Below, piece after piece: positions 2,979-62,373 of a stretch of 64,000 nucleotides of DNA. How positions within the stretch are numbered: position 1 is the stretch's first letter; every line of letters starts with the position of its first letter. Origin of the DNA: Clostridium sp. (lineage in GTDB: Bacteria > Bacillota > Clostridia > Clostridiales > Clostridiaceae). Position numbers and translations under genes: made by a program. The stretch spans positions 62,001 through 126,000 of the forward strand of contig JARLHR010000097.1 of NCBI GenBank assembly GCA_031292145.1. Direction: 5' to 3'. The notes beneath the pieces are model-generated. The model ran no database searches. It was given only the letters and a program-made list of their open reading frames with translations, and had not been told where the DNA came from.

Positions 2979-4155
2979 TTATTGCCAACCGTTTATCCAT
3001 TAAATTTATTTCATTTTCTGAAATGTGAATTTCCTCTTCATAAATTCTATGAACTCTTTTGCCTAAACCACAAACGAATTCATAATTAAAACTTCCGGCC
3101 ATATTAGCTAACTCTTCTACAGAAATAATCTTATCTCCATCTCTACCCACTAAGGTTACTTCATCCTCAATCCTCACATTTTCAATATGAGTAACATCAA
3201 CCATCATTTGATCCATACATATTCTTCCTATAATTGGAGCATACTGTCCATGTATGAGTACCTTTCCTTTTGATGATAGTGCTCTTGGGTATCCATCACC
3301 ATATCCAACGGAAAGAGTTGCTATCTTAGTTTTGCCTTTTGTTATATAAGTTTTTCCATAACTTACACCATTTCCCGCGTCAACTGTGTTCACATTTATC
3401 ACATGGGTCTTCCATTCCAAAGCTGGTTTTAATTTAATAGCATCTTTATTAACCTCTTCAGATGGGTATAGCCCATAAGTAATTATTCCTGATCTCACCA
3501 TATCAAAGCGGTGATGGTCAAATTCCATTATTCCAGCACTATTACACATGTGCTTAATAGGAATATGAATATTTTTTTCTTCTAATAAAGTTATAAACTT
3601 ATCATACCTACACATTTGCAATTTACTATAATCTTTATCCATTTCATCTGCTGTAGCAAAATGAGTAAATAACCCTTCAACTGATAAATTAGGAAAAGTT
3701 AAAATCTCTTGAATTGCGTGAACTCCTGCTTCATTTGCATCAAAACCAATTCTAGTCATACCAGTATTCAATGCTATATGAACCTTTGCTTCTTTTTTGC
3801 ATATTGCACCTGCCTTTGATATTTCTTTAGCCATTTCTAGATTATATACAGTTTGAGTAATATCATTTTCAATGAGCATCACATATTGACTGGGCGATGT
3901 ATACCCAAGAATTAATATAGGTAATTCTATTCCATATTCTCGAAGCTCCTTTGCTTCTTCTAATGTAGCAACCCCATAATAATCTACATGACTTTTAAGA
4001 AAATCCCCCAGAACAATAGCACCATGCCCGTATCCATTAGCTTTAATTACTGCCATAACCTTCACATTTTTTTCTATTCTTTTTTTTGCTTCATTTATAT
4101 TATGCAAAATTGCCCCTAAATCTATCTTTGCATATGTTCTAAGATATCTTTCCAT
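2974..4155 (-). CDS. alr: Alanine racemase
   Basis: PLP enzyme interconverting L- and D-alanine. The N-terminal barrel has the PLP-lysine motif AVIKANGYGHG (Lys38 from the chosen start), and the C-terminal part has VSYGKTY (catalytic Tyr region) and GRICMDQMMVDVT. The start MERYLRTYAKIDLGAI is chosen at 4155 because an AGAAGG site precedes it; the frame is open for 30 more codons upstream but these look unlike the family. About 393 residues, usual length. It lies in a run of D-amino-acid and 5-oxoproline genes, so it probably supplies or removes D-alanine for the adjacent transaminase rather than acting only for the cell wall. This is inference from context. Confidence 0.93.
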   Translation of the reverse strand: MERYLRTYAKIDLGAILHNINEAKKRIEKNVKVMAVIKANGYGHGAIVLGDFLKSHVDYYGVATLEEAKELREYGIELPILILGYTSPSQYVMLIENDITQTVYNLEMAKEISKAGAICKKEAKVHIALNTGMTRIGFDANEAGVHAIQEILTFPNLSVEGLFTHFATADEMDKDYSKLQMCRYDKFITLLEEKNIHIPIKHMCNSAGIMEFDHHRFDMVRSGIITYGLYPSEEVNKDAIKLKPALEWKTHVINVNTVDAGNGVSYGKTYITKGKTKIATLSVGYGDGYPRALSSKGKVLIHGQYAPIIGRICMDQMMVDVTHIENVRIEDEVTLVGRDGDKIISVEELANMAGSFNYEFVCGLGKRVHRIYEEEIHISENEINLMDKRLAII

Positions 4156-4347
4156 AAACAAGCCTTCTTTATTAAATATATTTTTAAAAACTAAAACTTT
4201 CATTTCTAAATTTTTTCTATAATATATGTATGAAGTTATCATCACACAATTGTCAATTTCTGCTGGACCCCTTTCATATTTTCTTTAAGTTTACTTATAA
4301 ATAATGCAAAATTTCGCATACAATATAAATTACAAAATAATTCTTCA

Positions 4348-5115
4348 TTATATAATTTCATTCAATGGAGCAATCTTTATGTTTTCGTTTTTAAGATAAA
4401 ACTTTATCTTCTTTACAAATTCCAATGCCTTAGCTCCATCTCCATGAACACATATAGAATCCACTTTTATTTTTATATCTTTGCCTGTAATTGCTGTAAC
4501 CTTATTTTCTTTTATCATCCTTATAACTCTTTTAATTGCTGCTTCTTCATCTGTAATCATAGCACCTTCTTTAGTCCTTGCAACTAAAGAGCCATCCTCT
4601 TCATAAGCTCTATCAGCAAAAGCTTCTCTTGCTGCCTTTAGTCCAATATTTTGTGCGGCATTTATCATTTCACTTCCAGATAAGGCAAGCAAAATTAGTT
4701 CATGATTCACTTCAAATATACCTTCACAAATAGCCTCAGCAAGCTTTAAATCTTTTCCTGCCATATTATATAAAGCTCCATGTGGTTTTACATGCTGCAT
4801 TTTAATTCCATGCGCTCTGCAAAAGGAATCTAATGCACCAATTTGATATTGCACTATAGCTTTAGCTTCTTTGGGAGATACATTCATATTTCTTCTTCCA
4901 AAACCAGCCAAATCAGGAAATCCCGGATGTGCTCCAACACACACACCAGCTTCCTTAGCTAAGTTAACAGTATGATCCATTATAAGTGGATCTGATGCAT
5001 GAAAACCACAAGCCACATTAGCAGAAGAGATATATGAAATCACTTCTTCATCTAAGCCAAGCTTATAGCTTCCAAAGCTTTCTCCTAAATCACAATTTAA
5101 GTCTACCTTATACAT
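4348..5115 (-). CDS. pxpA: 5-oxoprolinase subunit PxpA (LamB/YcsF family)
   Basis: Third part of the ATP-dependent 5-oxoprolinase. The 255-residue protein opens with the family signature [12 protein letters not shown] and contains [31 protein letters not shown] and [10 protein letters not shown]. It starts at ATG 5115. It lies between the DUF1445 gene and alr, separated from pxpBC. Substrate of characterised PxpABC is L-5-oxoproline; whether this one accepts the D form made by the neighbouring cyclase genes is not known. Confidence 0.93.
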
Positions 5116-5210
5116 AAGTTTTCCCCTCTCAATACTTTAGCTTTATCCTTAACTCGTCACCTTTAGAACTCTTGTACTACCCATAATATCAAATTTATCT
5201 CTATTCAAAT

Positions 5211-5996
5211 TTAATATTTCAGTTCCACATTTTTAATGTCTGTTATAAGCATATGTCCAGGGGAATGTGTAATTACAATCTTAGGCTTAACATTCATAAC
5301 TATAGATTGCGGTGTCACACCACATGGCCAAAACACTGGCACTTCCCCTTCTTTTATTTTAACACAGTCTCCAAAATCAGGCTTATTAATATCCGAAATT
5401 CCTATAACAGACGGATCTCCTATATGAATTGGGCACCCATGAACCTTTGGCATTGTTCCAGTTACCATTACTGATTTCACAATTTGATCATATGAAATAG
5501 GTCTCATACTTACAACCATTTTTCCATTAAAGATTCCTGCTGGCTCACATTCTATATTAGTTATAAACATAGGCACATTACATTTTTCTTCTATATGCCT
5601 TACAGGTACTCCGGCTTCTAAAAGCTCTGACTCAAAGGAAAAGCTACAACCTATTAAAAAACTCACAAAATCATTTCTCCATAAGTGTTCTACACTTGTA
5701 TATTCACCAGTTAATATTCCCTCTTCATAAACTCTATATTTAGGAATATCCTTAGCAATATCTGCATCTTCTGCAATATATCTTAAGCTCCTGCTTCCTA
5801 CATCGCTAACTTCTAATATAGGACAAGATTTTGGATTTCTTTGAGTAAATAATAAAAAATCGTATGCTAAATCCTTTGGCAAAATAACTAAATTAGCTTG
5901 TGCATATCCCGCACACATTCCTGAAGTTTGTCCTGTAATTTTGCCTTCACGTATTAACTCCCGTACTTCCCTTGGTTTCATTTTAGAATAATCCAT
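5211..5996 (-). CDS. DUF1445/YcsI-family putative hydro-lyase (D-glutamate cyclase N-terminal-type domain)
   Basis: 261 residues of the DUF1445 (UPF0317) family: VRELIREGKITGQTSGMCAGYAQANLVILP, CPILEVSD, SFLIGCSFSFE, then GVTPQ and the C-terminal ITHSPGHMLITDI. Start set at ATG 5996 (MDYSKMKPREV) because AAGGAG lies 8 nt upstream; the longer open frame has a non-family leader. In mammalian D-glutamate cyclase (DGLUCY/C14orf159) a DUF1445 domain precedes a DUF4392 domain in one polypeptide. Here the two are separate, co-directional genes, this one downstream of the DUF4392 gene with a long palindrome between them. Likely role: partner in D-glutamate to 5-oxo-D-proline conversion, by inference. 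Confidence 0.8.
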   Translation of the reverse strand: MDYSKMKPREVRELIREGKITGQTSGMCAGYAQANLVILPKDLAYDFLLFTQRNPKSCPILEVSDVGSRSLRYIAEDADIAKDIPKYRVYEEGILTGEYTSVEHLWRNDFVSFLIGCSFSFESELLEAGVPVRHIEEKCNVPMFITNIECEPAGIFNGKMVVSMRPISYDQIVKSVMVTGTMPKVHGCPIHIGDPSVIGISDINKPDFGDCVKIKEGEVPVFWPCGVTPQSIVMNVKPKIVITHSPGHMLITDIKNVELKY

Positions 5997-38960: not shown

Positions 38961-40099
38961 TTATTTACTTAATCCATAAAAGGATTTCTTATAGAGATCT
39001 GTTAATTCCCCATTACTAGTTGCTCTTGGATTTGTAGGAGTACATACATCTTTAAAGGCATTTCGAGACATTTCTTTTAAAACAACATTAAATTTATCTT
39101 CACTTATTTCATTATTAGTTAATTTGTTAAATGAATCTGGAATCCCTAGAGTTTTATTTAACCCTCTTATATAATCAGATAAGTTATCAATACCTAAATT
39201 CTTTTCTACTAGGTCATACTTATTTGTACCTTTCTGTTATATTCGATAACATAAGGAAGTAAAATAGCATTTGCTAAACCATGAGTTATTCCAAACTGTC
39301 CTCCCATGCTATGAGCCAAACTGTGAACAATGCCTAAAGACACATTGCTAAATGCACATCCTGCAATAGTAGATGCATTGCATTGCTTCTCTCGCTTCCA
39401 CATCTTGTCCATTTTCATAAGCTTTAGGAAGCCACTTAAATACTAATCTAACTGCTTCGATTGCTAATGAATCTGTTAGCATAGTAGCGGCATTTGAAAC
39501 ATAGCATGTGACAATACATCCATACCAGTATAAGCTGTAGCATTCTTTGGCATTTTAGCTGGAAGATCTGAATCAACTATTGCAACATCTGGTATTATCT
39601 CAGGAGATACAATAGGATACTTTGCACGTGTCCCAGTATCTGTTACTACAAAACATCCTGAAATTTCTGATCCTGTTCCACTTGTAGATGGAATTGCAAT
39701 AAATTTTGCTTTGTTTCTTAATGTCTGAATTGAAAATGGTTTAATTAAGCTTTTGAATTCTATTTCAGGATGCTCATAAAATACCCACATACCTTTAGCT
39801 GCATCTAGAGATGAACCTCCTCCTACAGCAATAATCCAATCCGGTTTAAACTCCAACATATCCTTTGACCCTTTAATAATTGTATCAACTGTTGGATTAG
39901 GTTCTACATAATCTATAACTTTAACTTCAATGCCTGATTTATTTAAATATTTTTCTGCTTTTTCAATAAAACCAAATTTTTTCATTGAAGAACCACCAGT
40001 TACAATTATTTCCTTCTTTCCTTGTATTTCAGAAAGGTATTCCATTGCTCCTTGTTCTGAAACAATAGTATTTGGTACTTTAAACATAGAATAACTCAT
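38961..40099 (-). pseudogene. Iron-containing alcohol dehydrogenase, broken by three small deletions
   Basis: Starts well at ATG 40099 (MFKVPNTIVSEQGAMEYL, VGGGSSLDAAKG, IPSTSGTGSEISG) but leaves frame at about 39480-39500, where roughly 10 nt are missing after VLSHA. A second 2-nt loss occurs near 39380 (before STIAGCAFSNVSLGIVHSLAHSMGGQF), and a 1-nt loss near 39235 after YVIEYNRK. The last frame runs to TAA at 38961 (TNPRATSNGELTDLYKKSF, then YGLSK). All parts of a roughly 380-residue Fe-ADH are recognisable, so decay is recent. The iron-binding His region is intact but unreadable in one frame. Downstream of mgsA and rpiB. Confidence 0.88.
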
Positions 40100-44779: not shown

Positions 44780-44856
44780 TATAGCGTAATACGCTTTTCG
44801 TATATCTGCTAGAATACAAAACTTAAGTATAAAAACATTTTCATAAATGCTATATG

Positions 44857-45019: not shown

Positions 45020-45099
45020 TACTACTTTTTCATTTCTTATTATGATAACATTAACATTAATTAAAAATTATTTAGAAAATAAAATAGGAGGCAGTATTA

Positions 45100-47577
45100 A
45101 TGAAAACTCTTTTTGATAAAACCACGCTTAATGGAATGAAAATGAAAAATAGATTTATTAGGTCAGGATTGTATACTGGACTAGGCGGAGAAAAAGGACG
45201 TTTAACACCTGAAATTCACAAAATATATGAGGATTTAGCAAAAGGTGGAGTGGGAACTATTATAACAGGTTATTGTTATATTAAAGAAGACGATCAAGCA
45301 AATCAAAATATGGTAGGCATTCATAATGATTCCTGCATAGAAGACTTTAAAAGATTTACAGATATGATACATAGCCACAATACAAATGTAATTATACAAA
45401 TTGCTTGCGGTGGTTCACTTACTTACATGCCTACAGAGGGAAGAACCATTTTAGGACCATCAGCAGTAGCAACTCAAACAACAAAAATCACACCAACTCC
45501 AATTACAAAAGAACAAATTAAAGAATTAGCAAAGATATATGGCGAAGCTGCACTTAGAGCAAAAAAATCAGGCTTTGATGGTGTTGAAATTCATGCTGCA
45601 CATGGATATTTTTTAAGTCAATTTCTATGTCCATACTTAAATAGAAGAACTGATGAGTACGGCGGTAGTATTGAAAACCGCGCAAGAATTCTATTTGATG
45701 TATATAGAGAAGTACGTATGGCCGTTGGAGATGATTATCCAATATTTTTTAAAATAAATAGTGCGGATTACATGGAAAATGGTTTAACTATAACCGATAG
45801 TTTATATGTTGCTGAACGTTTAGCAGAACTCGGAGTGGATGCTATAGATGTAAGTGGTGGTAACGAATCTATTACTGAATCAATAGAAAATAATCTTACT
45901 ACTGCAAGAAAAGGCGTAGCTAGCAGTATAGAAAAAGAAAGCTATTTTAAAGATTATGCAATAGAACTATCTAAAAGAGTTTCCATTCCTGTTATTTTAG
46001 TTGGTGGTAACAGACATATTGATTTAATGGAAGAAATTTTAAATAACTCGAATGTTGAGTATTTTGCATTAGGAAGACCTTTGACTTGTGAACCAGATTT
46101 AATAAATCGTTGGGCTTCAGGAGATACCAGAAAACCAAAATGTGTGTCATGTAATCAGTGCTATTACACACCTGGTAAAAGATGTTTCTTAAACCTAAGA
46201 GATGGTAAAAAACATGAAAATACAATTAATAGAGTACCAATTGAATGCGATAACCCAAGTATCGTTGTAGACAAATCGAAATGCATACAATGCGGTATGT
46301 GCAAAAAAATGTGCCGAAATGTAATAACAGTCGGCAACATGTATGATTTAAATAAAACAGGTGATTTCGCAATCTGTATTAACTGTGGACAATGTTCTAA
46401 TATCTGCCCAACAGGAGCTATTACTGAAAGATATGATTATCAAAATTTAAAGAATGAAATTCAAGATTCTGAAAAGATTGTTATATTCAGTACTTCTCCA
46501 GCAGTACGTGTTGCTTTAGGAGAAGAATTCGGAAAATTGCCAGGTTCAAATGTAGAGGGGAAAATGGTCGCCGCTTTAAGAGCTCTAGGTGGAGATTATG
46601 TCTTTGATACAACTTTTGCTGCTGACCTTACAATTTGTGAAGAAGCCTCAGAATTAATTAAAAGAATTACAACAAAGGGCAATATTTCGCCACAATTTAC
46701 AAGTTGTTGTCCATCCTGGGTAAAATATGTAGAAACTTTTTATCCTGAATTTATTCAGAATCTATCTACTGCCAAAAGTCCAATAAGTATGCAAGGGGCA
46801 ATAATCAAAACTTATTTTGCAAAGTTAAAGGAAATTGATCCATCAAAAATCGTAACAGTAGCTGTAGCTCCTTGTACATCAAAAAAATATGAAATTAAAA
46901 GACCCGAATTGAGAGATGCTGGGAAGTACAACAATAACAGTGAAATTAAAGATACAGACTATGCCATCACAACAAAAGAGCTTGCTAAATGGATTAAAGA
47001 CGAAAAGATTGATTTCGATAGTTTAAAAGATTCTGAATTTGATAATATTTTAGGTAAGGGAACAGGTGCTGGTATCATCTTTGGAAATACTGGTGGTGTT
47101 ATGGAAGCAGCAGTTAGAACAGCGTATACCTATGTAACAAAAACAAATCCACCAAAAGAATTATTTGAATTAAAACCAGTAAGAGGTATGGATGGAATAA
47201 AAGAAGCGGAATTACAGATTGGTGACGTTACCTTGAGAGTTGCAGTAGTACATGGTATGAAAAACGTTAAAAAACTTCTAGATACGCTAAAGCAAGATAC
47301 TGTTTCCTATGACTTTGTTGAAGTAATGAACTGTCTTGGTGGTTGCATCGGTGGAGGTGGACAACCTAAAACCTTCCCATCAAAGACTAAAGAAGCTAAA
47401 GAACGTAGAATCAGAGGTTTATATAAGGAAGATAATGAAATGGAACGACGTCTAAGCCATGAAAATCCAGATGTTATAGAAGTATATAGTGAATTCTTTA
47501 AAGAACCTTTAAGCAAATTATCAGAGGAACTTTTGCATACTTCTTATAGTGATAAGTCAGATATATTAGGTAAATAA
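45100..47577 (+). CDS. Old Yellow Enzyme - ferredoxin - [FeFe]-hydrogenase fusion
   Basis: 825 residues. 1-335: OYE FMN barrel (NRFIRSGLYTGLGG, FDGVEIHAAHGYFLSQFLCP in parts, RRTDEYGGSIENR). 348-362: [4Fe-4S] ligands C348, C351, C354, C362 (CVSCNQC...RC) as in 2,4-dienoyl-CoA reductases. 388-437: two [4Fe-4S] ferredoxin motifs (C395/398/401/405 and C426/429/432/436). 450-800: H-cluster domain with L1 TSCCPSW (C536 proton relay, C537 ligand), L2 APCTSKKYE (C592) and L3 MNCLGGCIGGGGQP (C745, C749). All H-cluster ligands and the proton-relay Cys are kept, so catalysis is expected. The usual FAD/NAD domain of the OYE enzyme is replaced by the hydrogenase. It could couple H2 to reduction of a C=C substrate or evolve H2 from the flavin. 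GGAGG precedes ATG 45100. Cytosolic, single-gene unit. Confidence 0.93.
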   Translation: MKTLFDKTTLNGMKMKNRFIRSGLYTGLGGEKGRLTPEIHKIYEDLAKGGVGTIITGYCYIKEDDQANQNMVGIHNDSCIEDFKRFTDMIHSHNTNVIIQIACGGSLTYMPTEGRTILGPSAVATQTTKITPTPITKEQIKELAKIYGEAALRAKKSGFDGVEIHAAHGYFLSQFLCPYLNRRTDEYGGSIENRARILFDVYREVRMAVGDDYPIFFKINSADYMENGLTITDSLYVAERLAELGVDAIDVSGGNESITESIENNLTTARKGVASSIEKESYFKDYAIELSKRVSIPVILVGGNRHIDLMEEILNNSNVEYFALGRPLTCEPDLINRWASGDTRKPKCVSCNQCYYTPGKRCFLNLRDGKKHENTINRVPIECDNPSIVVDKSKCIQCGMCKKMCRNVITVGNMYDLNKTGDFAICINCGQCSNICPTGAITERYDYQNLKNEIQDSEKIVIFSTSPAVRVALGEEFGKLPGSNVEGKMVAALRALGGDYVFDTTFAADLTICEEASELIKRITTKGNISPQFTSCCPSWVKYVETFYPEFIQNLSTAKSPISMQGAIIKTYFAKLKEIDPSKIVTVAVAPCTSKKYEIKRPELRDAGKYNNNSEIKDTDYAITTKELAKWIKDEKIDFDSLKDSEFDNILGKGTGAGIIFGNTGGVMEAAVRTAYTYVTKTNPPKELFELKPVRGMDGIKEAELQIGDVTLRVAVVHGMKNVKKLLDTLKQDTVSYDFVEVMNCLGGCIGGGGQPKTFPSKTKEAKERRIRGLYKEDNEMERRLSHENPDVIEVYSEFFKEPLSKLSEELLHTSYSDKSDILGK

Positions 47578-47607
47578 ACATTTTTGTTGTTAAATCAAAA
47601 TTATTAA

Positions 47608-47646
47608 ATGCAGTAGATAATAATGATAAAACTACTGCATTTTTTT
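47608..47646 (+). terminator. Terminator of the hydrogenase-fusion gene
   Basis: Perfect stem ATGCAGTAG / CTACTGCAT with a T-rich tail, 30 nt after the stop codon. Confidence 0.8.
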
Positions 47647-47798: not shown

Positions 47799-48005
47799 TT
47801 ATGATTCATTTACAATATGATATCCACAAAACTGTATATTCCTCTCAGATTTTACAATGTTATATCCACAAAATTGTATATCTTTTTCTTCATAGCCTTT
47901 ACTCAATCTATATCCAATTATAACCTTTGAATTTATTATATAATCATCTGATTTCTGCAAATTATCGGTATTACTTTCTAAATCTTTTACTATTATTTTT
48001 TTCAT
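47799..48005 (-). CDS. Small protein with two IQFCGY(N/H)IV repeats
   Basis: 68 residues, not recognised. Hydrophilic N-terminal half (MKKIIVKDLESNTDN), then GYRLSKGYEEKDIQFCGYNIV and ERNIQFCGYHIV. The repeat unit is 14 codons, and the DNA repeats 47811-47838 and 47853-47880 agree at 25 of 28 positions. AGGAGG lies upstream (spacing about 11 nt), and the tandem operator at 48087 suggests real expression. The same motif occurs twice in an insertion within the neighbouring OYE enzyme (MHYSGYNIIKP, IQYTGYHVSK). Each copy has one Cys within Tyr/Gly context. Function unknown. Confidence 0.6.
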   Translation of the reverse strand: MKKIIVKDLESNTDNLQKSDDYIINSKVIIGYRLSKGYEEKDIQFCGYNIVKSERNIQFCGYHIVNES

Positions 48006-48852: not shown

Positions 48853-50964
48853 TTAGACTGATAATCCTGCTCTGTATCCTTCATCTACGGCTTCGAAGGC
48901 TTTCCTAGCTTTAATTGCATCTCCTATAACTATAATCTCATTTACTTTTCCTTGCAATTTTTCTTTTAGTGTATTTTCTGCTAAAGAACCAGTGGCTAAT
49001 ATTATATTGTCTATATTTTTTATTTCCTTTATAATAAATTTACTAACATGATACCCAGTATATTGTATATCTTCTACTATTGAATCCCTATCCAATTTTT
49101 CTTCTATATCTTTAGTAATAGGTTTAATAATATTGTATCCACTATAATGCATTTTTTCAGCAGCAGAATTTTTATTTATTTTATATCCTACTATAGAATC
49201 ATGACTCAATTTATTATTTATATCATTATCTTTCTCTACTATTACTGAATTTTCTCTTATTTCTTTTACTACTGTTGATGTAATAATATTTACTTTGTTT
49301 TTTTCTAAATTTTCAAGTAAAAAATATTTTTCTGCCGGTTCACTATCACCTACTATTTCATCCTTTTTTTCTATAACAGTTGCATTTTTGCCATGATTTG
49401 CAAGATGTAATGCTGTTTCTACACCAACAAGTCCACCACCAACAACTACTATGTTCTTTCCTACTTCTCTTTTACCTGATAAAATATCCTGGGCTAAAAC
49501 CACGGTAGGCAGCTCACTTCCAGGAATATTAGGAATAATTGGACTTGCTCCAACAGCTACTATAACTGCATCTGGGTTTTCCATTTCCACTTTATCAATA
49601 GTTAATTCTGTATTTAGATGGACATTAACTTTTAATTTTTGTAATTGTGTCTTCTGCCATACAGTTAAAGTATTTAATTCTTCTTTATTTGGAGGAATGG
49701 ATGCTAGTAACCATCGTCCACCTAATCGGTCATTTTTTTCAAATATGTGAACTTCATGGCCTCTTTCTGCTGCAATAATACCTGCTTGCATTCCTGATAT
49801 ACCACCACCTGCTATAAATACCTTTTTCTTCTTCTCTGCCATAGCTATTTCAAGTTCTTTTTCTTTTCCTGTAAAAGGGTTTACAACACAACTTATAGGA
49901 AGCCCTTTGTTTATTCTACCAGCACATCCTTGTACACATCCTATGCAATGTATTATATCATCTAATCTTCCCTCTTTAGCTTTCTTAGGAAGTTCCGGAT
50001 CTGCAAGGGAAGCTCTTCCCATAGCAACCAAATCAGCTTTTCCTGAAAGTAAAACCGCTTCTGCAATTAAAGGATCATTTATTCTTCCTACTGCAATTAC
50101 CGGAATATTAACAACCTTTTTTATTTCCCCAGCTAAATCTACTTTGAATGCATGTGGCACAAAAGATGGTGCGATATTATACATTCCACTTGCATAAACA
50201 CCAAATGATGAATTTATAGCATCTACTCCTGCTTGTTCTAGTAGCATTGCAATTACTTTTGCATCTTCTATTTTAATTCCACCATCCACAAATTCATCTG
50301 CCGAAATTTTTATTAGCATAGGAAAATCTCTTCCTACTTTTTGTCTAACATTTTCAATAATTTCTACTGCAAAACGAGTTCTATTTATAATATTTCCACC
50401 ATATTCATCTGTTCTCTTATTTGAAAAAGGTGACAGAAACTCACCTATTAAATATCCATGTCCAGCGTGAATTTCCACAGCATCGAATCCCGCTTTTTTA
50501 GCTCTTAGGGCTGCATCACCAAATTCTTGTATAATGCCTTTAATTTCTGACACTTGTAACTCATGAGGTGTTTCATCCATTGTTGGATCTTTTATTGGTG
50601 ATGGAGCTAGCGGTATTTGCCCTGTTATGTGGCTTCCTGTTTGCCTTCCTGCATGATATATCTGTGCAGCAATTTTTCCATTTTGAGCATGGACTCTTTC
50701 TGTCACTTTTCTATGACTTTCTATTTGCTTATCATTCCATAATCCTGCTATATTCGAGTATCCTTTAGCATGTTCATCTACAGCATAGTCTTCAGTTATT
50801 ATTAATCCCCATTCGCCTTTGGCTTTAGCTTCATGATACTCTATAAATCTATCTGTTGCTATTCCGTTTTTGTCACAATAATTCGTCACCATAGCTGAAA
50901 CTATCAATCTATTTTTTAATTCCATATTACCTATTTTTATAGGTTCAAAAACTTTCTTTAACAT
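48853..50964 (-). CDS. NADH:flavin oxidoreductase with repeat-containing insertion
   Basis: 703 residues. OYE barrel (NRLIVSAMVTNYCDKNG, FDAVEIHAGHGYLIGEFLSPFSNKRTDEYGG in parts), [4Fe-4S] ligands CIGCVQGCAGRINKGLPISC, and FAD/NAD domain (VFIAGGGISGMQAG, IVVVGGGLVGVETALHLA). Compared with the 29097-31034 paralogue it carries about 60-70 extra residues near 576-645, between RENSVIVEKD and NIDNIILATGS. These include KMHYSGYNIIKP and DIQYTGYHVSKF, the motif of the small protein at 47799. Probably still active, because the insertion falls in a surface region of the FAD domain just before the conserved ATG motif. Encoded 47 nt downstream of the membrane-protein gene. Confidence 0.9.
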   Translation of the reverse strand: MLKKVFEPIKIGNMELKNRLIVSAMVTNYCDKNGIATDRFIEYHEAKAKGEWGLIITEDYAVDEHAKGYSNIAGLWNDKQIESHRKVTERVHAQNGKIAAQIYHAGRQTGSHITGQIPLAPSPIKDPTMDETPHELQVSEIKGIIQEFGDAALRAKKAGFDAVEIHAGHGYLIGEFLSPFSNKRTDEYGGNIINRTRFAVEIIENVRQKVGRDFPMLIKISADEFVDGGIKIEDAKVIAMLLEQAGVDAINSSFGVYASGMYNIAPSFVPHAFKVDLAGEIKKVVNIPVIAVGRINDPLIAEAVLLSGKADLVAMGRASLADPELPKKAKEGRLDDIIHCIGCVQGCAGRINKGLPISCVVNPFTGKEKELEIAMAEKKKKVFIAGGGISGMQAGIIAAERGHEVHIFEKNDRLGGRWLLASIPPNKEELNTLTVWQKTQLQKLKVNVHLNTELTIDKVEMENPDAVIVAVGASPIIPNIPGSELPTVVLAQDILSGKREVGKNIVVVGGGLVGVETALHLANHGKNATVIEKKDEIVGDSEPAEKYFLLENLEKNKVNIITSTVVKEIRENSVIVEKDNDINNKLSHDSIVGYKINKNSAAEKMHYSGYNIIKPITKDIEEKLDRDSIVEDIQYTGYHVSKFIIKEIKNIDNIILATGSLAENTLKEKLQGKVNEIIVIGDAIKARKAFEAVDEGYRAGLSV

Positions 50965-56497: not shown

Positions 56498-56534
56498 AAG
56501 CTATAAAATACATTTTAAAGTAGGTGGTTTGATT

Positions 56535-56870
56535 TTGATAGAATATAGAAACAAATCTTACATATGCCCTTTAGATTTAGGATTTGAAATGATTCGCGGA
56601 AAATGGAAGGCTGTAATATTATGTCATTTAAATGATGGAGCAAAAAGATTTCTTGAATTACAAAGAATTACCTGTGGTGTAAGTCAAAAAGTATTAAATG
56701 AATCCTTAAAACAACTTGAAGATGATGGATTAGTAAAAAAGCATATTCATGCAGAGATGCCTCCAAGAGTGGAATACTCATTAACTGAAAAAGGCTCTGA
56801 ATTAGTTCCTGCTTTGAAAATTATTGAAGGATGGTCTAATAATCATTTTTCTGATATTACAGATAAATAA
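56535..56870 (+). CDS. HxlR-family winged-helix regulator
   Basis: About 111 residues: ICPLDLGFEMIRGKWKAVILCHLNDGAKRFLELQRI in parts, GVSQKVLNESLKQLEDDGLVKKH and PPRVEYSLTEKGSELVPAL, the complete HxlR/MarR-like domain with the conserved N-terminal Cys (CP). Start TTG 56535 has AGGTGG at 56522-56527; the TTG at 56529 is too close to it. Upstream of an MFS gene, with a tandem operator between them. Family members often sense electrophiles or aldehydes through that Cys. It is the best candidate to bind the CTTAC-N6-GTAAG sites at six loci here. Confidence 0.88.
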   Translation: MIEYRNKSYICPLDLGFEMIRGKWKAVILCHLNDGAKRFLELQRITCGVSQKVLNESLKQLEDDGLVKKHIHAEMPPRVEYSLTEKGSELVPALKIIEGWSNNHFSDITDK

Positions 56871-60525: not shown

Positions 60526-61860
60526 TTATAGTGCGAATAATACAACAAATGCTGCTGCAATAAAATACATTGGTACTGGAATATCTTTTGATTTCCCAGT
60601 AAATAATTTTATTAATACATAAGATACAAATCCAAATGCTAAACCATCTGTAATTGAATATGTTAAAAGTGTTAATATTAATGTTAAGAATACAGGCATC
60701 CCTTCAGTAAAATCTGAAAAATCAACCTTTGTTATTGGTTCCATCATTACTACTCCTAAAACTATTAGAACTGGAGCTGTAGCAAATCCTGGTATAGCAG
60801 TTAAAACTGGCGAAAAGAATAATGATAAAAAGAATAATGCTGCTATTGTAAGTCCTGCAAGTCCTGTTCTTCCACCTTCAGCAATACCTGATGCTGATTC
60901 TATATATGCTACAGGTGTAGAAGTTCCTAAACATGCTCCAATTGTTGAACCAATTGCATCAGCTGTTAATACTTTATCAGCATTAAGAACATTACCCTTT
61001 TCATCTAAATAACCTGCTTTTGAAGCTAGACCAATCAAAGTTCCAATACTGTCAAATACATCAATAAATAACATGGAAACAATAGCCGGAATTATTCCTA
61101 CTACCATTGCACTTTTAAAATCAAATTGCATAAATACTGGAGCAACTGATGGAGGCATGGACACTATTCCAGCAGGTGCCGCAGCAACTCCAAATATCAT
61201 ACCAAGTATATATACAGAAAACATTCCAATAATAAATGAACCCTTTATATTTTTATAAAATAATACTGCTATTATAATTACACCTAAACAAGCTAGAAGA
61301 ACTGTTGGATCTTTTAAATTTCCTAAACCAACTAATGTAGCCTGGTTACCAACGATTATTTTAGCATCTTGAAGACCAATAAATGCTATAAAGAATCCAA
61401 TCCCAATACTAATTGCATATTTTAATGTTTGAGGAACACTATCAATAATTACTTGTCTAATTTTAAATACATTAAGTAATAAAAATATAATTCCTTCAAT
61501 TAATGAAGCTGCTAAAGCTGTTTGCCATGAAAACTTCATTGTTAAACAGATTGTAAATGTAAAAAATGCATTTAACCCCATACCTGGTGCCATACCAAAT
61601 GGATAATTAGCAACAAGTGCCATAATTACAGTTCCAATAAAGGAAGCTAATGCTGTTGCTGTAAATACTGCTGATATATCCATACCTGATTGGCTTAAGA
61701 TACTTGGATTTACAACTAATATGTATGCCATAGTTAAAAAAGTAGTTAATCCTGCTAACATTTCAGTCTTTACATTTGTTTTGTTTTTTGATAAATGAAA
61801 TATTTTTTCAAGTATCCCATTTTCTGTGTTCTTTACCGTATTTTTTGATACATTGTCCAC
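60526..61860 (-). CDS. Guanine/hypoxanthine permease, NCS2 PbuG-like
   Basis: 444 residues with about 12-13 hydrophobic segments: TNVKTEMLAGLTTFLTMAYILVVNP in parts, GMAPGMGLNAFFTFTICL, FDSIGTLIGLASKAG, DAIGSTIGACLGTSTPVAYIESASG in parts and GGRTGLAGLT. These are the marks of AzgA/PbuG-type purine permeases. A guanine riboswitch with a terminator precedes it, so transcription is reduced when guanine is abundant, and guanine or hypoxanthine is the expected cargo. Confidence 0.93.
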   Translation of the reverse strand: MDNVSKNTVKNTENGILEKIFHLSKNKTNVKTEMLAGLTTFLTMAYILVVNPSILSQSGMDISAVFTATALASFIGTVIMALVANYPFGMAPGMGLNAFFTFTICLTMKFSWQTALAASLIEGIIFLLLNVFKIRQVIIDSVPQTLKYAISIGIGFFIAFIGLQDAKIIVGNQATLVGLGNLKDPTVLLACLGVIIIAVLFYKNIKGSFIIGMFSVYILGMIFGVAAAPAGIVSMPPSVAPVFMQFDFKSAMVVGIIPAIVSMLFIDVFDSIGTLIGLASKAGYLDEKGNVLNADKVLTADAIGSTIGACLGTSTPVAYIESASGIAEGGRTGLAGLTIAALFFLSLFFSPVLTAIPGFATAPVLIVLGVVMMEPITKVDFSDFTEGMPVFLTLILTLLTYSITDGLAFGFVSYVLIKLFTGKSKDIPVPMYFIAAAFVVLFAL

Positions 61861-62027: not shown

Positions 62028-62045
62028 AAGCAAAATACCTATAAA

Positions 62046-62115
62046 CACCCATAGTCAGACAATTTACGGTAGTCCGGTAGAGACACTTAGACCTTATTTC
62101 TAAGCATATACGGGT
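62046..62115 (-). promoter_or_regulatory. Guanine riboswitch aptamer (purine class)
   Basis: Minus strand: P1 ACCCGTATA ... TATGGGTG, P2 CTTAGA-AATAAGG-TCTAAG, the J2/3 core TGTCTCTACC, P3 CGGACTACCGTAAATTGTCTG (described; loop kisses with the P2 loop), and J3/1 ACTATG. The ligand-pairing base is C (GACTAT), not U, so guanine/hypoxanthine rather than adenine. Upstream of the purine permease gene, as expected. Confidence 0.93.
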
Positions 62116-62373
62116 AAAATTTCAAATTTTACATATGATCTATCAATCCACTATATTCCATTCTTGCATATAACATCTTAAATTATATGATTAACAAAAT
62201 ATAATATATTAAGAGTGTGATACATAGCTCTCTTTTTATATACCTAATCCTACAACAAATCTCTTCATAAATCAATAGCAATTTTATTATTTTAAGTATT
62301 TTTTTCAATTTTCGAAGTTAATCGTTCGTCTTTTTCACAATGTAATCATACACAGTATTAGTAATTCAAATTA
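62116..62373. other. Intergenic region upstream of the riboswitch
   Basis: Should contain the permease promoter on the minus strand; no box strong enough to call. No gene seen. Confidence 0.4.

Follow-up and report, generated by a model that had tools for sequence, protein, structure and literature searches.

In clostridial 2-enoate reductases, 2,4-dienoyl-CoA reductase and BaiCD, an Old Yellow Enzyme (OYE) barrel is followed by a [4Fe-4S] motif, and the relay of electrons from this [4Fe-4S] cluster to the FMN is established. In iron-sulfur OYEs, 2,4-dienoyl-CoA reductase among them, the FMN is fed via the cluster in one-electron steps, and the electrons of these three enzymes are drawn from NAD(P)H via a C-terminal FAD/NAD domain. 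NAD(P)H is oxidised by many OYEs. Among the hydrogenases, CpII is the uptake hydrogenase of Clostridium pasteurianum, for which the signature residues S99, T137 and T223 are reported (PMC5506873). CperHydR is reported to be a CpII-like hydrogenase fused to a rubrerythrin that performs H2-dependent H2O2 reduction and in which H2 evolution is nearly absent (PMC11926857). A hydrogenase-type protein with a flavin redox module is described in the hydrogenase-SfrB composite ACL20074 of Desulfitobacterium, from a strain reported to be without maturation enzymes (PMC9888536). Laboratory H2-driven OYE reductions reportedly combine separate hydrogenases and ene-reductases (PMC10962552, PMC11380674).

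We analyzed a 64-kb stretch of DNA from a Clostridium sp. (the window, taken at its full length) in which an OYE, a two-cluster ferredoxin domain and an [FeFe]-hydrogenase are encoded by one gene, as a frame of 825 aa without internal stop (45100-47577, + strand). The features of this locus are:

44783..44795, no strand assigned: weak terminator-like site in the gap that separates the fusion from the sugar-binding-protein gene upstream of it (consensus scan)
45086..45091, + strand: AGGAGG ribosome-binding site of the fused gene (duplex -10.2 kcal/mol)
45100..46194, + strand: OYE (Oxidored_FMN) domain, residues 1-365, with the HAAHGY active-site motif at 165-170
46141..46185, + strand: OYE iron-sulfur motif C348-x2-C351-x2-C354-x7-C362 (motif reading)
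46195..46212, + strand: the join, ..NLRDG followed by KKHENTINRVPIE.., where the hydrogenase N-terminus directly follows the OYE end, with a zero-length linker (alignment)
46207-46212, + strand: A6 run at the join (sequence)
46261..46425, + strand: two [4Fe-4S] ferredoxin motifs, residues 388-442, with C395/398/401/405 and C426/429/432/436 (Pfam)
46474..47358, + strand: H-cluster domain Fe_hyd_lg_C, residues 459-753 (Pfam E 4.9e-90; motifs)
47392..47556, + strand: Fe_hyd_SSU C-terminal segment, residues 765-819 (Pfam)
47606..47642, + strand: terminator-like hairpin then T run just 3' of the fused gene (fold -12.4 kcal/mol, without shuffle control)

The single 825-residue frame with an OYE barrel and a [4Fe-4S] motif, as claimed in the preliminary description, was borne out by the ORF, by Pfam and by the four-Cys motif. 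The same holds for its two ferredoxin motifs, full H-cluster ligand set and proton-relay Cys, which were recovered by Pfam, NCBIfam and motif reading. In the OYE half, Oxidored_FMN (PF00724) matched residues 4-341 with an E-value of 3.2e-57, which identifies an FMN-binding TIM barrel, and the HAAHGY motif aligned with that of YqjM (1z41), the closest solved structure to this half by sequence. We take this motif to be the substrate-binding His pair and the catalytic Tyr. The hydrogenase half carries L1, L2 and L3 of a group A [FeFe]-hydrogenase with the four H-cluster Cys and the relay Cys all present: L1 is TSCCPSW (relay C536, ligand C537), L2 is APCTSKKYE (ligand C592) and starts with Ala, and L3 provides C745 and C749 with MNC in place of MAC. 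The roles of the Cys residues as H-cluster ligands, relay and cluster ligands are those established for the family. The group A model TIGR02512 scored 483.6 bits, above its cut-off of 405.95 (NCBIfam), and the best NCBIfam match by E-value was the NADH-dependent A6 model, which remained below its cut-off (562.3 versus 765 bits). By sequence, the closest solved structure to this half is 8a6t, a bifurcating hydrogenase, through its HydA1; Pfam and motif reading gave two accessory [4Fe-4S] clusters and no more. The HydE, HydF and HydG models each scored above the family cut-off in the genome of the fusion, and thus the H-cluster can be made. The sequence supports the reading of the product as an intact, maturable hydrogenase joined in frame to an intact OYE.

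Structure prediction supported both catalytic domains and left the join at residues 348-380 at low confidence. A first AlphaFold model (27 alignment rows) had a mean pLDDT of 80.1 and a pTM of 0.54, with residues 257-276, 349-428, 431-442 and 758-762 below pLDDT 50. A second model (54 rows) reached a mean pLDDT of 86.3 and a pTM of 0.60; the ferredoxin part improved, residues 348-380 and 268-275 were still below 50, and most blocks of both catalytic domains exceeded 85. Foldseek with the first model returned hydrogenase chains among the 50 matches listed and nothing on the OYE half.

The fused gene has a single well-supported start. It is probably monocistronic, as judged from the upstream terminator-like site and the downstream hairpin and T run. 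The upstream site is weak because the window holds 3 such sites against 1.3 expected by chance; the downstream hairpin, with its loop of 15 bases, is absent from the list of the consensus terminator scan. The neighbours of the gene are the sugar-binding protein gene and a BaiCD-like OYE gene (48853-50964, - strand), whose 703-aa product has a repeat-like insert near its C-terminus. Next to the latter lies a 68-aa ORF with 2 copies of a QFCGYxIV repeat (47799-48005, - strand); the 12-base core of this repeat gave 2 matches in 396 kb of the genome, only in those 2 genes. HydB and HydC partner genes were absent beside the fused gene in both flanks inspected, and an electron-bifurcating HydABC complex was rejected on this ground. 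Elsewhere in the window, a redox regulator of the RrpA/RrpB kind that scored below the NCBIfam cut-offs (56529-56870, + strand) resembles by eye the regulators beside stand-alone relatives of the fusion's OYE in loci L009 and L023. A purine riboswitch (62032-62133, - strand, 84.7 bits), the sole Rfam match above gathering score in the window, lies upstream of a gene at 60526-61860 that is a purine permease gene by eye.

To place the OYE half we used it as a query against 200 family genomes, with at most ten candidates scored per genome, and obtained 55 places in 43 genomes at E 1e-75 or better. The open frame at the window's own match was 829 aa, and the other 54, with 230-391 aa, represent stand-alone OYEs or pieces of such proteins. 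The 4 closest relatives (79, 60, 58 and 59% identity, the closest in genome G121) are stand-alone proteins in open frames of 375-379 aa. The preliminary description had the hydrogenase replacing the usual NAD/FAD domain of an OYE; this was wrong, since the closest OYE relatives are stand-alone and single-domain, and the hydrogenase was therefore added without replacing such a domain. No Pyr_redox domain was present among the 12 Pfam matches of the fusion. The four-Cys spacing was kept in all 7 close relatives read (L009, L023 and L025-L029), and this conserved motif may serve as a one-electron port. The fusion has the OYE barrel and the [4Fe-4S] motif in the same order as the 2-enoate reductases, 2,4-dienoyl-CoA reductase and BaiCD, but a hydrogenase where these have the FAD/NAD domain, and it differs from the three-domain enoate reductases in its x2-x2-x7 Cys spacing and its single-domain OYE relatives. 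Assignment to the three-domain 2-enoate/2,4-dienoyl-CoA reductase type was rejected because the fusion lacks a C-terminal FAD/NAD(P)-binding domain.

The hydrogenase half fell inside the CpII/HydR-type clade (57 rows, SH-aLRT 97) in a 73-row tree, a quick one built without bootstrap. Its sister in this tree was the hydrogenase of locus L181 (SH-aLRT 99), on a long branch. The L181 protein is a stand-alone hydrogenase (2989-5563) 10 nt upstream of a gene for an FAD/NAD(P) oxidoreductase (Pyr_redox_2/Fer4_20), which we take to be GltD-like; together the two are possibly an H2-NAD(P) enzyme. With the whole protein as query, the 14 hydrogenase places listed in family genomes showed 56-64% identity, and their ORFs mostly start MSKH..R[VI]PIE. 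A C-terminal extension was present in 6 family ORFs (L014, L016, L017, L020, L021 and L024), and a C-terminal rubredoxin/rubrerythrin partner in 5 of these (L014, L017, L020, L021 and L024). The CpII-like hydrogenases of L016, L220 and L243 have 2 or 3 C-terminal rubredoxin-like domains, and a rubrerythrin di-iron domain was absent among their Pfam matches. The L016 and L183 rows are identical and represent the same gene, L183 being from Clostridium sardiniense; the genome of L016 belongs to the same genus as the window organism, which places that organism in the genus of L183. Across the loci examined, 59 of the 96 ORFs with at least 50% identity carry a C-terminal extension of more than 40 aa, mostly rubredoxin/rubrerythrin-like by eye, with Pfam run on 3 and with at least 3 being second copies of the same gene. 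The clade is therefore often wired to other redox modules.

Residues 366-825 have the same architecture as CpII, which, unlike the fusion, is stand-alone; 2 of the 3 second-sphere residues are common to both, the third being Ala for Thr (PMC5506873). This comparison runs via the hydrogenase of L012, which is CpII-like by its signature residues. All 3 of these were present in L012 and L013, residues 366-825 were 60% identical to L012, and in the fusion the 3 positions are occupied by Ser, Thr and Ala, the last being A590. Compared with CpII, L2 has Ala for Thr and also Ser for Ala, the Ser being shared with CpI; both positions are linked to the bias, and a CpII-like bias is therefore not assured. 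Because the hydrogenase half lies in the CpII/HydR clade, the sequence favours H2 oxidation as the probable direction. CperHydR resembles the fusion in belonging to the same clade, in having two [4Fe-4S] clusters and the H-cluster, in carrying another catalytic redox module on the same polypeptide, and in its proposed H2-oxidising direction (PMC11926857). The partner of CperHydR is, however, a C-terminal rubredoxin/rubrerythrin, whereas that of the fusion is an N-terminal FMN OYE, and L2 reads APCTSKKYE in the fusion versus TPCTAKKFE in the HydR type. Membership of HydR was rejected since the fusion has no rubredoxin/rubrerythrin Pfam domain and the protein stops at residue 825. The Desulfitobacterium composite ACL20074 also joins a hydrogenase-type protein to a flavin redox module, but this module is of the FAD/NAD(P)H type and not an OYE, and the hydrogenase part is HndD-like (PMC9888536).

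Further OYE-hydrogenase fusions were sought in 4 overlapping genome draws, comprising 206 family, 225 order, 391 class and 398 phylum genomes with cut-offs of 1e-150, 1e-110, 1e-110 and 1e-130, respectively, and with 2-4 candidates per genome scored as a rule. The genomes with a match, the window's own included, numbered 16 of 206, 139 of 225, 270 of 391 and 35 of 398, and none of the matches listed from any draw was a second one spanning fusion residues 1-825. A class-draw match (G446, contig C13) covered query residues 227-820 at 40% identity with 2 internal stops and an open frame of 577 aa. In a scan of an 84,980-species collection, which gave at least 594 pattern matches and at least 578 confirmed relatives, none of the 80 relatives kept covered the OYE half, and an OYE gene lay within their flanks (up to 3 kb) only at L251. 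A script found no ORF matching both halves in loci L009-L066 and L177-L256 and 4 loci of the fusion's own genome. A single-protein pattern scan of genome contigs gave 24 pattern matches and no relatives by tblastn, and none of the 43 plasmid records with a match covered 80% of the fusion query.

Two 826-aa frames of the phylum draw that looked like the fusion turned out to be phosphotransacetylase-hydrogenase fusions (Pfam on one). They lie at L257 6251-8716 (+ strand) and L258 1483-3951 (- strand), in genomes G665 and G883, and combine an N-terminal phosphotransacetylase domain with a CpII-like hydrogenase; the domain is a Pfam match to PTA_PTB in L257 and was assigned by eye in L258. Their L1 is TSACPSW, with Ala in place of the relay Cys, and in both loci the fusion gene adjoins another gene that by eye is PTA-like and stand-alone. 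This phosphotransacetylase fusion and the 59 of 96 extended ORFs mark the CpII/HydR clade as fusion-prone.

The OYE-hydrogenase fusion is a singleton, found in one genome among those searched, and there is therefore no conservation evidence for selection of the fused state. We found no published description of an OYE-[FeFe]-hydrogenase fusion in the literature searched, whose coverage leaves out most subscription journals, and none is given in the available excerpts of PMC8924675, PMC9431212 and PMC5882074.

We propose that the protein is a genuine natural, self-contained H2-dependent OYE reductase that arose from the joining of an iron-sulfur OYE gene and a CpII/HydR-type hydrogenase gene, a reading to which we assign a probability of roughly 55%. 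A single-domain iron-sulfur OYE gene would have been joined end to start, without a linker, to the hydrogenase gene. The H-cluster would split H2, and single electrons would travel via both ferredoxin clusters to the OYE's own cluster and on to the FMN. An electron-poor double bond or another electrophile (an enoate, enone, quinone or nitro compound) would then receive hydride from the reduced FMN, the hydrogenase supplying the electrons that a single-domain OYE would otherwise take from a soluble donor. By analogy with the known iron-sulfur OYEs and with CperHydR, we infer this flow from H2 to FMN, and an enoate is a possible substrate. The fusion would then resemble CperHydR in its mode of action and differ from it in the acceptor. 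That this may be the first natural single-chain hydrogen-driven ene-reductase, in which H2 would reduce the FMN via the Fe-S clusters of the protein itself, with neither NAD(P)H nor a soluble carrier involved, is a claim for which we see even odds.

A different use of the same domains would have the OYE half acting as a flavin port for NAD(P)H, making the fusion, instead of an ene-reductase, an NAD(P)H-linked hydrogenase (an H2:NAD(P)+ reductase or an NAD(P)H-dependent H2 former). The capacity of many OYEs to oxidise NAD(P)H speaks for such a port, as does the NADH-dependent A6 model being the top NCBIfam match by E-value, sub-cut-off though it is. The nearest tree relative, L181, sits 10 nt before an FAD-NAD(P) oxidoreductase gene, and NAD(P)H could therefore still be a partner of the fusion. 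However, the open frames of all 54 other OYE matches are too short to accommodate an NAD/FAD domain, the hydrogenase clade has a bias towards H2 oxidation, and the OYE retains the presumed His pair and Tyr for enone/enoate reduction, so that we regard this alternative as unlikely.

The join itself bears on whether a fused protein exists, because only certain lengths of the A run (46207-46212) give the fused frame. This frame was preserved in silico with A3, A6 and A9, whereas A4 or A7 stopped the OYE at 371 or 372 residues, close to ATG 46202, from which the hydrogenase could then start. An indel is therefore a serious rival: two overlapping genes, OYE then hydrogenase, would appear fused through an artefact or a very recent mutation in the A run. 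The occurrence of the fusion in no other genome searched fits this. However, ATG 46202 is without a Shine-Dalgarno sequence (+1.0 kcal/mol), and the required frame offers no other start from 46150 up to the A run; random positions had a median of 0.4 kcal/mol, and three-quarters of 4,000 were as strong or stronger. Hydrogenase starts of relatives were at -5.9 to -11.7 kcal/mol in 13 of 13 cases (L022, a fourteenth, was left out). ATG 46214 reaches -5.2 kcal/mol, but its frame does not lead into the hydrogenase. Moreover, OYE and CpII-like hydrogenase genes were never adjacent in 16 relative loci (L009-L024, flanks of up to 1.5 kb).

A survey of 396 kb sampled from the assembly flagged no frame breaks in the approximately 146 kb covered by relatives' proteins, and an earlier, smaller survey none in approximately 39 kb covered. 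The survey detected 104 of 150 single-base deletions planted in the covered part (121 kb by a stricter count), and a control on genome G024 gave 2 sites in approximately 84 kb, which trace to a single query ORF. An iron-containing alcohol dehydrogenase gene 5 kb from the fusion (38961-40099, - strand) is nevertheless broken, its frame closing after 207 aa and similarity continuing in another frame. The survey left this gene unflagged and is therefore insensitive to clustered breaks, a point in favour of an artefact. Overall, a sequencing or assembly error joining two genes, a possibility raised in the preliminary description, is made less likely by the weak ATG 46202 and the absence of flagged breaks, while the dependence on A6 remains. 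We consider an artefact or very recent mutation improbable, and a natural gene fusion very probably the better reading. Least probable of all is a translated but electronically uncoupled fusion, serving mere co-expression or co-localisation of two enzymes or having one inactive half, since against the zero-length linker and the low AlphaFold confidence of the join (348-380) stand the intact catalytic and cluster ligands of both halves and a pLDDT above 85 in most blocks of both catalytic domains.

If the proposed H2-dependent OYE reductase is real, it would be a natural one-chain version of, and a ready template for, H2-driven OYE reductions, and the single-domain clostridial OYEs would gain a testable physiological electron source. 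The CpII/HydR hydrogenase clade would then represent a plug-in H2 electron source that evolution has attached to different catalytic modules, and the cell may use H2 directly to hydrogenate a small molecule.
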